A stretch of 36,827 bases of DNA from an uncultured Clostridia bacterium (GTDB lineage Bacteria; Bacillota; Clostridia; Oscillospirales; Butyricicoccaceae), in contig CAMEPU010000003.1 in NCBI GenBank assembly GCA_945932315.1, positions 1-36,827 of the forward strand, given 5' to 3'. Each line of letters starts with the position of its first letter. The first letter of the stretch is position 1. Made by a program: the position numbers and the translations under genes. Below the pieces are notes generated by a model. That model searched no databases, was not told the DNA's origin, and saw only the letters and a list, made by a program, of their open reading frames with translations. Shown here piece after piece: positions 18,986 through 27,174 of this stretch.

Positions 18986-19023
18986 AAAAAGAGCTGCGAT
19001 TTCCGGGGAAATCGCAGCTTTTG
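18986..19023. terminator. Bidirectional terminator
   Basis: AAAAAGAGCTGCGATTTccggggAAATCGCAGCTTTTGATTT between convergent genes. Confidence 0.75.
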
Positions 19024-19026
19024 ATT

Positions 19027-19878
19027 TCAGTTGTCGAAATAGGTGGAAAGACCGCCGATGGCGGCGAGCCTGTCCGCATACGCGGGATGATCGCGGCTGA
19101 TGCGCACGGCACAGCGGCGGCAGAAGCGCTCGCGCTCGGCAGGGTCGGCGCGCAGCACATTTTTATAGCCCCAGGTGTGGGTGAAGAAATTTTGTCCGGT
19201 GGTGAACAGCGCGCCGAGGTCGGCAAGCGCTGCGAGCGGAACGCCGTCCTGCGCCGCCAGCATGGGCAGCAGGCGCTGCTCGGCAAAGACCATGTAGGTC
19301 AGTCGGTCGCCGTCCGGCAGCGCATCCTCCATGAAATGGAGCGCGGCGTCGCAGTACCGGTTCTTGAAATCCGGGTCGGCAAACCAGGAAAACGCGGTGT
19401 TCGTGGCCGGCTGGGCGAGGTCAAACGCCGACAGATCAAACGGGGCGCGCGTGCGCAGCCCGTGTGGATCGGGATAGATGTCGGGCACAAGCGGTTCACG
19501 GTGGATGACCGCGAGCGGCAGCGCAGACAGAATCGCCTCCAACGGCTGCCAGACGATGAAATCAGTGTCGATCATCGCGCAGGGCGCGTCCATCTGGCGC
19601 AGGGCGAGCAGTTTGCCGGCCGCCCAAAAGCAGGATGGATCAAAGGGAACGTCCAGCGGCAGCGGGTGAATCTCGTTCCACAGGGGGAGCAGGCCGAGTT
19701 GTTCATAATACGCGTGTGCGACCGGGTCGCAAAACAGGTCGATCGGCCCGTTGCACCGCCGCCATTCGAGCGCGGAGAGCGCCGCTGTAAGAAGCTCAAA
19801 ATCCTCAACGCCGTATTTCGATTGCCGGTCGCGGGCGAACAGAGGCGCGCTCCAGGCGGTGTGAAAGGCGCGAATCAT
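19027..19878 (-). CDS. Putative glycosyltransferase-like protein (resembles DUF6734)
   Basis: Start reassigned to MIRAFHTAWSAPLFARDRQSKYG at 19878 (ATGA overlap with upstream gene); MDAPCAMIDTDFIVWQPLE has a DxD-like motif. Confidence 0.6.
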   Translation of the reverse strand: MIRAFHTAWSAPLFARDRQSKYGVEDFELLTAALSALEWRRCNGPIDLFCDPVAHAYYEQLGLLPLWNEIHPLPLDVPFDPSCFWAAGKLLALRQMDAPCAMIDTDFIVWQPLEAILSALPLAVIHREPLVPDIYPDPHGLRTRAPFDLSAFDLAQPATNTAFSWFADPDFKNRYCDAALHFMEDALPDGDRLTYMVFAEQRLLPMLAAQDGVPLAALADLGALFTTGQNFFTHTWGYKNVLRADPAERERFCRRCAVRISRDHPAYADRLAAIGGLSTYFDN

Positions 19879-20423
19879 ATGAGGTCGAGGCCGTAGCCAC
19901 CCGGGCCGAATGCGCACGAGCCCAGTCCGGAGCCGAACGAGCCAAACGAGCCGGCCGAACCCGAGCTTGTGTACCAGTACGAGCCCGAGAACGAGGTCGT
20001 AAAGGAGATCGTGTACGAGGTGCTGAGCGAGGTCAGATAGGACGTGGTGTAGGAGCCGGAGCCGCTGCCGACGGACGGGACGACGAATTCACCCGCGCGG
20101 ATTGCGCCGGCCATAATCGGATAAACGACGTGATTTTCGGTGGTGTACCAGCCCGCGTGCACCGGATCGACCGCGAAAACAGGCGCGGGCGCGGCTACGG
20201 GAGCCGGTTCGGATTGTGCGGCGGGCGCGGCGGGTGCCGGCTCGGCCGTTTGATGCTGGGGTGCTGCTTCCCGGGCGGACGGAACCGCTGGGGACGCGGG
20301 CTTCTGGTGCTGGATATATCTCTTGTAGCTGTCTTCATCAAAGACGACACCGCCGACCTCGCGCAGATGCGTGCGGTCGAGCTCCAGAATACCCTGGCAG
20401 CGGGATTGTTTCTTTTCCGCCAT
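19875..20423 (-). CDS. Low-complexity protein with Pro/Ala linker and Ser/Thr/Gly/aromatic tetrapeptide-repeat C-terminus
   Basis: MAEKKQSRCQGILELDRTHLREVGGVVFDEDSYKRYIQ...PVFAVDPVHAGWYTTENHVVYPIMAG...SYTTSYLTSLSTSYTISFTTSFSGSYWYTSSGSAGSFGSFGSG; RBS AGGAGGT and promoter present. Confidence 0.8.
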   Translation of the reverse strand: MAEKKQSRCQGILELDRTHLREVGGVVFDEDSYKRYIQHQKPASPAVPSAREAAPQHQTAEPAPAAPAAQSEPAPVAAPAPVFAVDPVHAGWYTTENHVVYPIMAGAIRAGEFVVPSVGSGSGSYTTSYLTSLSTSYTISFTTSFSGSYWYTSSGSAGSFGSFGSGLGSCAFGPGGYGLDLI

Positions 20424-20455
20424 GAAAGATACCTCCTGTGATGATCCATGCTTTT

Positions 20456-20484
20456 ATTATAGGGGGTTGGGGGGAGAATATCAA
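20456..20484 (-). promoter_or_regulatory. Promoter for the repeat protein/GT-like pair
   Basis: Minus strand TTGATA-N17-TATAAT. Confidence 0.7.
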
Positions 20485-20498
20485 CAAAAAAAGATGGC

Positions 20499-20527
20499 TT
20501 TACAGAAAGCAATTTGGAGGATATAAT
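20499..20527 (+). promoter_or_regulatory. Divergent promoter for FkbM methyltransferase
   Basis: TTTACA-N17-TATAAT. Confidence 0.65.
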
Positions 20528-20555
20528 GAAAGAAAAGAAATTAAAGGAATGAAAA

Positions 20556-21626
20556 ATGGAAAATATTACAGAAAAACCGACGGTTTGGGAGCGTTTGCGG
20601 GACGAAACCCGGCCGATTGTTTTGTACGGCATGGGCGACGGCGCGGACAAGATTCTGCGCGTGTTCGCCGGGCGGGGAATCCGGGCCTCAGGCGTGTTCG
20701 CGAGCGATGAGTTCGTCCGGGGACACGATTTTGCCGGTTTCCGCGTCAAAAAGCTCTCCGAGCTGACGGCCGAGCTGGGCGAGGATCTGATGATCGTCCT
20801 GTCCTTCGCCAGCCAGCGCCCCGAGGTGCTCGAGAAATTCTATGAGCTGGACGCACGCTTTGATCTGGTCGCACCCGACGTCCCGGTCGCGGGGGAAGGG
20901 CTGTTCGATCGGGACTACCTGAACGCGCACATGGAAGAATTTGAACAGGCCTACGGCCTGATGGCCGACGAGACCGCGCGCCGCTGCTTTACCGACATCC
21001 TCAATTTTAAGCTGACGGGCGAGATTCATTACCTGCGCGGCTGCGAGACCGCGAAGGACGAGGCGTTTCAGAAGATCCTGCGGCCGGATGCGGCCGAGCA
21101 TTTTACTGATCTGGGCGCGTATAACGGCGATACGATCCGGGAGCTGCTCTCCTATACCGGCGGGCAGTACGCCTCGATCACCGCGCTTGAGCCGGATGGA
21201 CGCACCTTCCGCAAGCTGCGCGCTTACGCCGATGAAAATCTGACCGGGGACGTTGCGCTGGTCAACGCGGGTGCGTGGTCGCAGGACACGACGCTCACCT
21301 TTGCGGCCCGGGCCGGACGCAATTCGGCGCTGGCTGCGAAAGGTGTGGAGACCCCGATGCGGGCGCTCGATTCGGTGCTGGACGGCCGCCCGTGCACCAT
21401 GCTGAAGCTGGACGTCGAGGGCGCCGAGCGCAAGGCGCTGCTGGGTGCGGCGCAGACCATCCGCCGCTGGTCGCCCCGCATGAACATCGCCTGCTATCAC
21501 CGCAACGAAGATCTGTTTGACCTGCCGCTGCTGGTGCACGCGCTCTGCCCCGGACACCGGCTGTATCTGCGCCATCACCCATATGTGCCGGCGTGGGACG
21601 TCAATCTGTATGCCGCGCCAAATTAA
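20556..21626 (+). CDS. FkbM family methyltransferase
   Basis: HFTDLGAYNGDTIRELL...ITALEPDGRTFRKLRAYADEN...VETPMRALDSVLDGRPCTMLKLDVEGAERKALLGA...NIACYHRNEDLFDLP. Confidence 0.88.
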   Translation: MENITEKPTVWERLRDETRPIVLYGMGDGADKILRVFAGRGIRASGVFASDEFVRGHDFAGFRVKKLSELTAELGEDLMIVLSFASQRPEVLEKFYELDARFDLVAPDVPVAGEGLFDRDYLNAHMEEFEQAYGLMADETARRCFTDILNFKLTGEIHYLRGCETAKDEAFQKILRPDAAEHFTDLGAYNGDTIRELLSYTGGQYASITALEPDGRTFRKLRAYADENLTGDVALVNAGAWSQDTTLTFAARAGRNSALAAKGVETPMRALDSVLDGRPCTMLKLDVEGAERKALLGAAQTIRRWSPRMNIACYHRNEDLFDLPLLVHALCPGHRLYLRHHPYVPAWDVNLYAAPN

Positions 21627-21715
21627 GGCTGGAAATCTCTTCCGCCGCGGGGTATAATAAAATCAGAAAACCGCGCGAGCGGGATATCAACTGAGAAAAC
21701 AAAGGAGACAAAAAT

Positions 21716-22138
21716 ATGGGATGCTTTTACTGTGATGAACACCATGAGGGCCGCGAAGCCATTATGTTTGAAGTCGGCAAGATGAAGGCCGGCACGCTTT
21801 ATCTGTTCAAGGATCAGTCCCACAAGGGCCGCTGCGCGCTGGCGCTGAACTCCCACAAGAAGGAGCTCTGCGAGTGCGACTCCGAGGAGTGCGCACAGTT
21901 CGCCGCTGATCTGGCCGCGGCTTCGGGCGCGATCAAGAAGCTGTGGGGCTGCACCAAGCTGAACCTCGGCTCTTACGGCGACACCAATCCCCACCTGCAT
22001 TTCCATATCGTCCCCAAGTATGAGGGCGGTTTTGAGTTCGGCGGCGCGTTCGCCATCACCAACCCCGAGCCGGTATTCCTGAAGGACGAGGAGTATCAGG
22101 AAATGATCGACGCTCTGAAGAAGGAACTGGGTCTCTGA
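21716..22138 (+). CDS. HIT family protein
   Basis: NPHLHFHIVPKY histidine triad; N-terminal CFYCDEH. Confidence 0.9.
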   Translation: MGCFYCDEHHEGREAIMFEVGKMKAGTLYLFKDQSHKGRCALALNSHKKELCECDSEECAQFAADLAAASGAIKKLWGCTKLNLGSYGDTNPHLHFHIVPKYEGGFEFGGAFAITNPEPVFLKDEEYQEMIDALKKELGL

Positions 22139-24504: not shown

Positions 24505-25002
24505 TTATGCCCCGCCGATCGTCTCGATCGCCACGCTTCCGCCCCGGACGATTTCCAGACGGCCGGGGAAGCAGCGCTGCAGCAATGCAATCCAATCGTT
24601 GTTCCGGCTTTCGGCCTGCACGCTTTCCAGCAACACCGTATCGGCGCCCGATTCGAGGATTTTTGCCGCGAAGGGCAGGCACAGCCGCTCGATCTCCGCG
24701 CGGTCATTTTCGGAGCAGCCGCGAATTTTGACGAACATCAGCTCTTCGCTGTGAATCGCCGCATCGGTAAAATCAACGACCCGGATGACTTCAACGCTGC
24801 GGTTGAGCTGCTTTTTGATCTGCTCAAACGTCCGGTCGTCGCTCGTGAGACCGATGGTCATGCGGGAGACCGTGGGGTCTTCGGTCGTGCCGACGGTCAG
24901 GCTGTTGAGGTTATAGGACTTGCCCGAAAACAGGCCGGCGATCCGGGCCAGCGTGCCGATCTCATTTTCCACAAAAAGGCTGAGCCATCGTTTTTTCGTC
25001 AT
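24505..25002 (-). CDS. ilvN: Acetolactate synthase small subunit
   Basis: MTKKRWLSLFVENEIGTLARIAGLFSGKSYNLNSLTVGTTEDPTVSRMTI ACT domain. Confidence 0.93.
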   Translation of the reverse strand: MTKKRWLSLFVENEIGTLARIAGLFSGKSYNLNSLTVGTTEDPTVSRMTIGLTSDDRTFEQIKKQLNRSVEVIRVVDFTDAAIHSEELMFVKIRGCSENDRAEIERLCLPFAAKILESGADTVLLESVQAESRNNDWIALLQRCFPGRLEIVRGGSVAIETIGGA

Positions 25003-26510
25003 TGCTTTCCTCTCCTGTCATCATATCGCATAGTGGATTGCCGGGCGGAACGATCGGGAAGACGTTTTCCTCCCGGTCGATCAGAAACTCGATCACGGTG
25101 GGGGTGCTGCGGGTGTTTTTTGCTTCCAGCAGCGCGCGGTCGATCTCATCCGCGCACTGTACCCGGATCGCCTTCGCGCCGTAGCCTTCCGCCAGACGGA
25201 TGAAGTCGGGCGTGTACGCCGGGCAGCGCTCCGAGGGATGGCTGCAAACGGACGGACAGCCCTTGCGGTAACGCAGGCAGGTGCCCGAATAGCGCTTTCC
25301 GAAGAACAGCTCCTGCCACTGGCGCACATTGCCCAGATAGCCGTTGTTCAGAATGCAGATGATGACCGGGAGCTCGTAAACGACTGCGGTGGCCAGCTCC
25401 TGAATGTTCATTTGAATGCCGCCGTCGCCGCAGATCGCGAGGCGGCGTGGGCAGGGGATGCCCGGCTTTCCAGCGGACGATCTCCGCACGCCAGTCCGTC
25501 AGATCGAGCGTGGGCGCTCTGTCCAGCAGCGCGCGGATCGCGTTTTTGGCGTCGGCTACGATGGGGATGTCGACCGCGATATTGCGCGAAATGGACGCGG
25601 GATCGATGTCGATGTGGATGATGGACGCGTTGGGCGCAAATTCGCTCACTTTGCCGGTGATCCGGTCATTGAAGCGGACGCCGATCGAGAACAGCACGTC
25701 GCAGGCGCTGACCGCAGTATTGGCGGCGTAGCTGCCGTGGATGCCCAGATTGCCGACGTACAGCGGGTGATCGGTGGGGATCGCGCCCTTGCCCATGATC
25801 GTGGTGACAACCGGGATGCCTGTTTTCTCGGCGAGCACGGTCATCTTTTTGTTTGCACGCGCGATATTGACGCCGCCGCCCAGCAGAAAGAGCGGACGTT
25901 TGGCTTGCTTGAGACATTCCATGGCTTTTTTGAGCTGCCCCATGTGCACCTCGGTGTTGGGCTTGTAGCCCCGGATGTCGACCTGCGCGGGGTAGTCGGC
26001 GCTGCCGGGCGCGCGCTGGATATCCTTGGGCAGGTCGACCACGACAACGCCGGGTTTGCCCGACCGGGCGATATAGAAGGCCTTTTTGATGACCGCGCCC
26101 AGATTCTCCCGCCTGCGGACGGTGACCGCGTATTTGCAGATGCTCCGCGTGATGCCGACGATATCGACCTCCTGAAAGGCGTCGTTGCCGATGAGGACGG
26201 TGGGCACCTGTCCGGTGAAGCAGACGAGCGGGACGCTGTCGTAGTTGGCGGTCGCAATCCCGGTGACGAGATTGGTCGCGCCCGGTCCGCTGGTGACCAG
26301 ACAGACGCCGACCCGGCCGGTCGCGCGGGCATAACCGTCGGCCGCATGGATGAGACCCTGCTCGTGCCGGGGCAGGACGACGCGGATCTGCTCCACCCCG
26401 TAAAGCGCGTCAAACAGGTCGATCGCCTGCCCGCCGGGATAGGCGAACAGCGTGTCGACCCCCTCGGCCAGCAGCGCCTGGACAAACAACCCGGCTCCTG
26501 TGAGTTCTAT
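24962..26510 (-). pseudogene. ilvB: Acetolactate synthase large subunit with internal deletion plus frameshift and no ATG/GTG/TTG at the SD-positioned start
   Basis: N-terminal frame IELTGAGLFVQALLAEGVDTLFAYPGGQAIDLFDAL...DWRAEIVRWKAGHPLP then the frame changes to CPRRLAICGDGGIQMNIQELATAVVYELPVIICILNNGYLGNVRQWQ; the segment normally containing PQ.VI...VTDVGQHQMWAAQ...GLGTMGFGLPAAIGA is absent. Confidence 0.8.
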
Positions 26511-26562
26511 TTTGATTCCTCCTTGTGAATGCGTGTACTTGCTTGCATAATGGATTTTAGAA

Positions 26563-26590
26563 TACGGTACCATCGCAGGACAGTACCGTA
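26563..26590. promoter_or_regulatory. Operator-like inverted repeat between tetR and ilvB
   Basis: TACGGTAC-N12-GTACCGTA. Confidence 0.45.
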
Positions 26591-26595
26591 AAATT

Positions 26596-27174
26596 TTACT
26601 CGTGTGAGATTCCCTGAACAAATGTCGCAACAGACTGCCTGATATAGTCCTCGCGGCTTACTTTGGAGAGGTTCTGATCGAAAGACGCGCTCAAAAAGGT
26701 GTAGCCGAAGGTGCTGGAAAAGATGGTCATGGCGAGACATTCAAAATCCAGATGGGGGAGTTTGCCGCGCGACTCCATCTCCCCGAAATACTGCACGAGG
26801 GAGGACAGGAAGGCCTGCGGCACTTTCATGACGAGCGGCGCGGTCTCCGCATAAATCTGCGGCGCGCGGAGCCCGATGGAAAGCCGGACGAAATCGGGCG
26901 TGATCCGCTCCATATACTCCCGCATGAACATCTCCAGATCGGGCTGCAGCTCCCATTGCACGTTTTTGAAGATCTCAGGCGTCAGGTTGCCGCGCCACTT
27001 TTCCTGCTCCACACCGTGCAGAATGATGTCTTTTTTGTTCTTGAATTTGCGGAACAGCGTGCATTCGTTGACGCCCGCCAGTCTTGCGATATCCTTTGTC
27101 GTCGTGGCGACATAGCCCTTGTCGCGCACGAGCGCCATCGTGGCGTCTATGATCTTCTGGCTGGTTTCATCCAC
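26596..27174 (-). CDS. TetR/AcrR family regulator
   Basis: TSQKIIDATMALVRDKGYVATTTKDIARLAGVNECTLFRKFKNKKDIILHGVEQE. Confidence 0.93.
   Translation of the reverse strand: MDETSQKIIDATMALVRDKGYVATTTKDIARLAGVNECTLFRKFKNKKDIILHGVEQEKWRGNLTPEIFKNVQWELQPDLEMFMREYMERITPDFVRLSIGLRAPQIYAETAPLVMKVPQAFLSSLVQYFGEMESRGKLPHLDFECLAMTIFSSTFGYTFLSASFDQNLSKVSREDYIRQSVATFVQGISHE

Follow-up and report, generated by a model that had tools for sequence, protein, structure and literature searches.

What does a gene for a Ser/Thr-rich protein do when it overlaps a gene for a glycosyltransferase-like protein, and does the methyltransferase gene across the shared promoter region belong to the same system? These questions are raised by a locus in an uncultured Butyricicoccaceae bacterium, lying within a 36,827-nucleotide stretch of DNA that was analysed as a whole and is referred to below as the window. 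An enzyme related to DUF6734, accompanied by a partner with a constant tail and found in many gut Clostridia, points to a previously unrecognised system for placing sugar on one particular protein.

Gene organization of the locus

The partner, a putative substrate of 182 aa, is encoded by a Ser/Thr/Gly/Tyr-rich ORF (19875..20423, minus strand), followed on the same strand by the gene of a 283-aa protein (19027..19878) that is a DUF6734 relative by PF20508 and GT-A glycosyltransferase-like by AlphaFold2 and Foldseek. The ATG of the latter (19876-19878; stop codon at 19027-19029) overlaps the stop codon of the former (19875-19877), giving the ATGA junction described in the sequence-only reading of this DNA. 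The same reading had proposed a compact divergent region with two TATAAT promoters, and both sites were recovered as sigma-A-like promoters matching 11 of 12 consensus bases, TTGATA-17-TATAAT for the partner-enzyme pair (20456..20484, minus strand) and TTTACA-17-TATAAT for the FkbM gene (20499..20527, plus strand). Five promoter-like sites were counted in the region against 0.7 expected from shuffling. Most of the relatives listed have a TTGxxx-17-TATAAT-like site 29-50 nt 5' of their partner gene, and a site upstream of the partner gene scoring at least 10/12 was present in 18 of 74 relatives compared with 5.2% in shuffles. A bidirectional terminator-like hairpin (18989..19022) ends the pair as well as the convergent YitT gene, and the partner and DUF6734 genes are best explained as a two-gene operon with a promoter of vegetative type. 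Elsewhere in the window, ilvB, encoding the acetolactate synthase large subunit (24962-26630, minus strand), is seemingly split into two overlapping frames with the middle stretch lost, followed by an intact small-subunit gene (24505-25002); ilvB would then be a pseudogene, unless the MAG is misassembled at this point.

The DUF6734 enzyme

By profile the enzyme is a relative of DUF6734 (PF20508), weakly so for the window protein itself (E = 4.1e-5, 23.6 bits, under the cut-off of 27). All 60 homologues matched PF20508 at E ≤ 0.1 with a best value of 2.3e-19, and many DUF6734 homologues exceeded the Pfam gathering score in genome searches. Neither the window protein nor the 60 homologues matched a Pfam glycosyltransferase family, no solved-structure chain was found by sequence-profile search with the enzyme, and by sequence profile the enzyme does not fall into CAZy family GT8. 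The open-access literature searched yielded no paper that names DUF6734.

The AlphaFold2 model, built from 60 sequences, reached a pLDDT of 95.8 and a pTM of 0.92. Foldseek searching against the PDB returned 74 matches at E ≤ 0.001, and the 50 listed were all glycosyltransferases with a probability of 1.00, including glycogenin, the xyloside xylosyltransferase XXYLT1, UGGT and LARGE at E values of about 1e-5 to 1e-4. These matches are remote, with query-normalised TM scores of 0.32-0.48 and about 10-15% identity. The computation establishes a predicted GT-A fold, with glycogenin, XXYLT1 and UGGT as its closest counterparts, so that the fold check called for on 19027..19878 came out positive, with a DxD motif present. 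That motif is the DTD previously pointed out in this protein (D104-T105-D106; 19561..19569, minus strand), a metal/sugar-nucleotide motif invariant in the 60 homologues. Towards the C-terminus, H234-T-W-G237-Y-K239 (19162..19179, minus strand), in which H, W, G and K are invariant in the same homologues, resembles the HxxGxxK metal/diphosphate motif of GT8 but is one residue shorter.

The partner protein and its C-terminal tail

The Ser/Thr-rich part of the window partner (residues 101-182) contains 23% Ser, 10% Thr, 20% Gly and 16% Tyr plus Phe, and harbours a Ser/Thr/Gly/Tyr/Phe-rich repeat region of TSYx-type and GSF units (residues 117-170; 19914..20075, minus strand). The protein ends in GGYGLDLI, a feature absent from the earlier reading, and the tail GYGLDLI (19878..19898, minus strand) fits the shared pattern GYG[LIVM][ENHD][LI][IV]. 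The N-terminal unit ILELDRTHLREVGGVVFDEDSYKRY (20316..20390, minus strand) is conserved in Butyricicoccaceae and duplicated in Agathobaculum, whose partners (e.g., L045:4396-4998) carry the ILAMDPxxYREIDGVVFDxDSYxKH unit twice, the second copy reading GVAMDEDSFERH, making the N-terminus itself a repeat of ~25-50 residues. The window partner fell into no known family. No signal peptide or membrane segment was apparent in it, and a hydrophobic segment scoring above 1.6 was absent (1.15), and such a segment was present in only one of 75 relatives. Relatives keep the adjacent partner, at 32-46% identity. Ten partner types gave no convincing Pfam or NCBIfam match beyond low-complexity ones; the HxsA match of a Criibacterium partner was weak (E = 0.0014) and was judged to reflect composition.

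In total, 80 DUF6734 loci from Clostridia were taken from the genome collection and examined with a tail pattern that required both Gly residues and permitted F, H or W in place of Tyr. In 76 of them an upstream ORF ends in GYG[LIVM][ENHD][LI][IV], its stop lying from 53 nt before to 3 nt inside the enzyme gene. The four positions after GYG were occupied by L58/I15/V2/M1, E42/N23/H6/D5, L73/I3 and I66/V10, and Tyr was found in 76 of 76 tails with none of the permitted substitutes. These tails are encoded by 61 distinct 21-nt sequences yielding just 12 distinct heptapeptides, demonstrating that the constraint acts on the protein. The remainder of the partner is far more variable, ranging from the 23-aa peptides of Cellulosilyticum (MRFSKEIEEIPTSNAGGYGLELI) and the ~60-aa peptides of Clostridium to proteins of 140-300 aa built on TSYx, SSGSFRx, GSF or (GS)n repeats. 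Five or more N-terminal types occur that are unrelated to one another. The N-terminal type tracks the enzyme clade, and the tail alone is common to all clades. Nearly all partners are devoid of a membrane segment, and practically every one, most short ones included, has a Ser/Thr- or Ser/Gly-rich stretch. At three loci the 15 residues next to the tail are free of Ser/Thr. In eight of the 76 partners (L095, L097, L101, L102, L109, L115 and L148 among others) the series of Ser/Tyr or Ser/Phe repeats is broken by a YEYEYEY-like tract. This tract may have arisen from an inverted repeat unit, the same repeat DNA being read on its opposite strand, or may be an acidic tyrosine tract with a function of its own.

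Coupling of tail and enzyme across genomes

Coupling was assessed in 291 genomes sampled evenly across the Clostridia, the tail being searched as a DNA pattern with the enzyme position unused. DUF6734 occurred in 14 of these genomes and the tail was found in all 14, directly upstream in ten and on another contig in four. In every case read, covering all of these matches but the trans one of genome G207, the tail ended a Ser/Gly/Thr-rich ORF, while no such tailed protein was recognised in the 277 sampled genomes lacking DUF6734. The enzyme-free genomes yielded 26 tail matches, 22 of which were read and proved to be frames of 7-103 aa without an S/G/T-rich region of this kind; the other four (GYGMLLV, GYGIAFV, GYGIILI and GYGISFV) are off-consensus at position 5. 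Of the four loci out of 80 that depart from this arrangement, two have the tail protein in trans, and the genome of locus L071 gave no tail protein with either the strict pattern or the L173 protein as query. That dozens of genomes retain both the gene pair and the motif at the partner's C-terminus indicates an association beyond chance. The pair, its tail and their coupling are thereby established computationally, and the Ser/Thr-rich protein is supported as the dedicated partner of DUF6734, in cis or in trans, in many families.

Outside Clostridia, DUF6734 was found in one Spirochaetaceae MAG among 149 genomes of that phylum. Each of its two DUF6734 genes is preceded by an ORF with an internal SSGGIGYG[IL]DLI (..ALTSSGGIGYGIDLI-TFIPK.. 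and ..LSSSGGIGYGLDLI-DNVSR..), suggesting that recognition depends on the motif itself and not on a C-terminal position. At the Spirochaetaceae loci L111, L176 and L177, the proteins carrying the GYG motif before DUF6734 are zinc-ribbon proteins, one of them TPR-like. Horizontal transfer or contamination of the MAG with foreign contigs are both possible origins of these genes.

Searches of phage, plasmid and viral collections gave no relatives, which disfavoured a phage or plasmid origin, and PADLOC returned no meaningful match to a defence system. The spoIVA gene was present both in relatives that have the glycosyltransferase and in relatives that lack it, 53 of 60 in all, and consequently does not discriminate sporulation specificity.

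Proposed function and alternative explanations

Since the enzyme has a predicted GT-A fold and a dedicated partner, glycosylation of the partner is the leading prediction. In the reading we favour, given an even chance of being right, the pair is a dedicated module for protein glycosylation in the cytoplasm, with the tail as the recognised element and the Ser/Thr-rich stretch as the acceptor of the sugar. The DUF6734 transferase would act in the cytoplasm on one dedicated acceptor, identifying it by the C-terminal GYG[LI]xLI tail; the sugar would come from a nucleotide-sugar, with the metal probably held by D104, D106 and H234, and would be passed to hydroxyl side chains in the flexible Ser/Thr-rich stretch that precedes the tail. 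Under such a scheme the number of acceptor residues could vary freely, from two or three in some of the shortest peptides to dozens in the repeat proteins, as long as the tail stayed. That a sugar is transferred, what it is, which residue receives it and what the tail does are all inferred. No transporter or protease is linked to the pair, which favours a glycoprotein that stays with the cell over an exported bacteriocin as the product. A read-through fusion of the L057 Clostridium peptide and its glycosyltransferase (stops read as Gly) was folded with AlphaFold, and the tail was not confidently placed (pLDDT below 50 for residues 1-70, three alignment rows only carrying the peptide), leaving the binding mode without structural support.

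Several observations count against this reading, namely the remoteness of the Foldseek matches, the three loci without Ser/Thr near the tail, and the tail Tyr that is never Phe, as a plain docking motif would be expected to tolerate Phe. The last point would fit the invariant Tyr of the GYG tail being the acceptor itself, in a glycogenin-like O-glycosylation of a separate small protein whose Ser/Thr region is a linker or structural element. The Tyr is constant although F, H and W were permitted (the invariance of the flanking Gly residues was required by the pattern), glycogenins, enzymes that glucosylate a tyrosine, are the closest among solved structures, and Ser/Thr residues vary in number, from two to dozens, and in spacing. 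Nevertheless, Tyr as acceptor appears somewhat unlikely, for practically every partner also keeps a Ser/Thr- or Ser/Gly-rich stretch, and the similarity to glycogenin is remote and common to Ser/Thr-active and sugar-active glycosyltransferases. Its extension into a two-component bacterial counterpart of glycogenin, in which a GT8-like enzyme glycosylates the tail Tyr and GYG[LI]xLI is a portable tag, borne by small or repeat-bearing proteins, that perhaps serves to prime a glycan, is quite improbable. The resemblance of the tail to a docking motif, its internal position in the zinc-ribbon proteins and the many N-terminal domains would also suit a partner serving as a scaffold, targeting or activating subunit, its tail binding DUF6734 and leading the enzyme to a surface or another glycan. 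Several clades, however, have partners of just 23-60 aa with little beyond the S/T stretch and the tail, for which a substrate role fits better, and a scaffold is accordingly doubtful in our estimate.

The remaining alternative is a three-gene system, in which the repeat protein is glycosylated by the DUF6734 enzyme and the sugar is then O-methylated by the FkbM protein, as the sequence-only reading had suggested. The 356-aa product of the divergent gene (20556..21626, plus strand) is indeed an FkbM-family methyltransferase, scoring 60.4 bits against the TIGR01444 cut-off of 37.7 and 37.5 bits against the PF05050 cut-off of 22.7. It lies divergently beside the pair in 12 of 15 Butyricicoccaceae neighbourhoods, an arrangement confined to this family, and within this family FkbM and the enzyme co-occur in the same genomes; of the other three neighbourhoods, two belong to genus g10 and a contig end intervenes in the third. 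Yet all Butyricicoccaceae genomes with both genes fall in one clade of the spoIVA tree (100/99) and therefore count as a single event, the FkbM-HIT genes of genus g10 sit elsewhere in the genome, unlinked from the pair, and other families have FkbM beside unrelated genes without DUF6734. Neighbour clustering of the 80 loci placed FkbM almost only in Butyricicoccaceae, leaving the other enzyme clades almost without it. FkbM was thus rejected as a core component and is probably a neighbour rather than an obligate part; with a link that amounts to synteny in a single clade, it gives the proposed methylation no support, and the three-gene system is very unlikely. The earlier proposal of a dedicated substrate-plus-modification system is accordingly supported as regards a dedicated partner (14/14 genomes, 76/80 loci) and unsupported as regards FkbM. 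A gene for a HIT-like protein follows FkbM on the plus strand, behind the same promoter, and the two (20556-22138) form a conserved pair in the module-bearing Butyricicoccaceae clade even when unlinked; at L117 and L118 this pair runs on into an apparent M50 peptidase and ScpA.

The favoured reading, glycosylation of a tail-bearing partner, would give DUF6734, a family that Butyricicoccus, Agathobaculum and many other gut Clostridia possess, its first testable function, with a partner protein identified and a seven-residue tag predicting it. If confirmed, tail and enzyme would constitute a compact, genetically encoded glycosylation tag, and common commensals would possess an unrecognised layer of glycoproteins.

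Comparison with known systems

Serine-rich repeat adhesins are glycosylated on their Ser/Thr repeats in the cytoplasm by the cognate GtfA/GtfB. In contrast, no signal peptide, LPXTG, SecA2/SecY2 or GtfA/B was seen at DUF6734 loci, and membership in the SRRP/accessory Sec systems was dismissed, the window partner having no hydrophobic segment and the neighbours being unrelated. Glycocins, bacteriocins that are secreted and contain Cys, have a transporter, disulfides and a glycosyltransferase of another family. Like the pair described here, those of the SunS and ThgS type combine a small ribosomal peptide with a dedicated glycosyltransferase (PMC6405829, PMC12457901). Membership was nonetheless rejected, as the partners have no Cys-rich core and no transporter was recognised among the recurrent neighbours of DUF6734 loci.

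Another clostridial GT-A enzyme, SgtA of C. difficile, adds beta-O-GlcNAc to Thr/Ser of the repeat protein BclA3 (PMC7157674). BclA3/SgtA differ in the collagen-like GPT repeats, the exosporium location, the WcaA-type glycosyltransferase and the lack of a known GYG tail, whereas the window promoters look vegetative. No evidence was found for an enzyme family or tail shared with SgtA/BclA3 or the glycocins.

Judged by its 60 matching homologues, the enzyme is a relative of DUF6734 (PF20508), a family without a described function whose description does not include the tailed partner. Beyond that family, its likeness is to GT8/GT24 enzymes such as glycogenin, XXYLT1 and UGGT, with which it shares the predicted GT-A fold, the DxD and a C-terminal His/Gly/Lys motif. 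It is set apart from them by having no detectable sequence relation to the solved chains, by HxxGxK instead of HxxGxxK, and by its separate partner protein.
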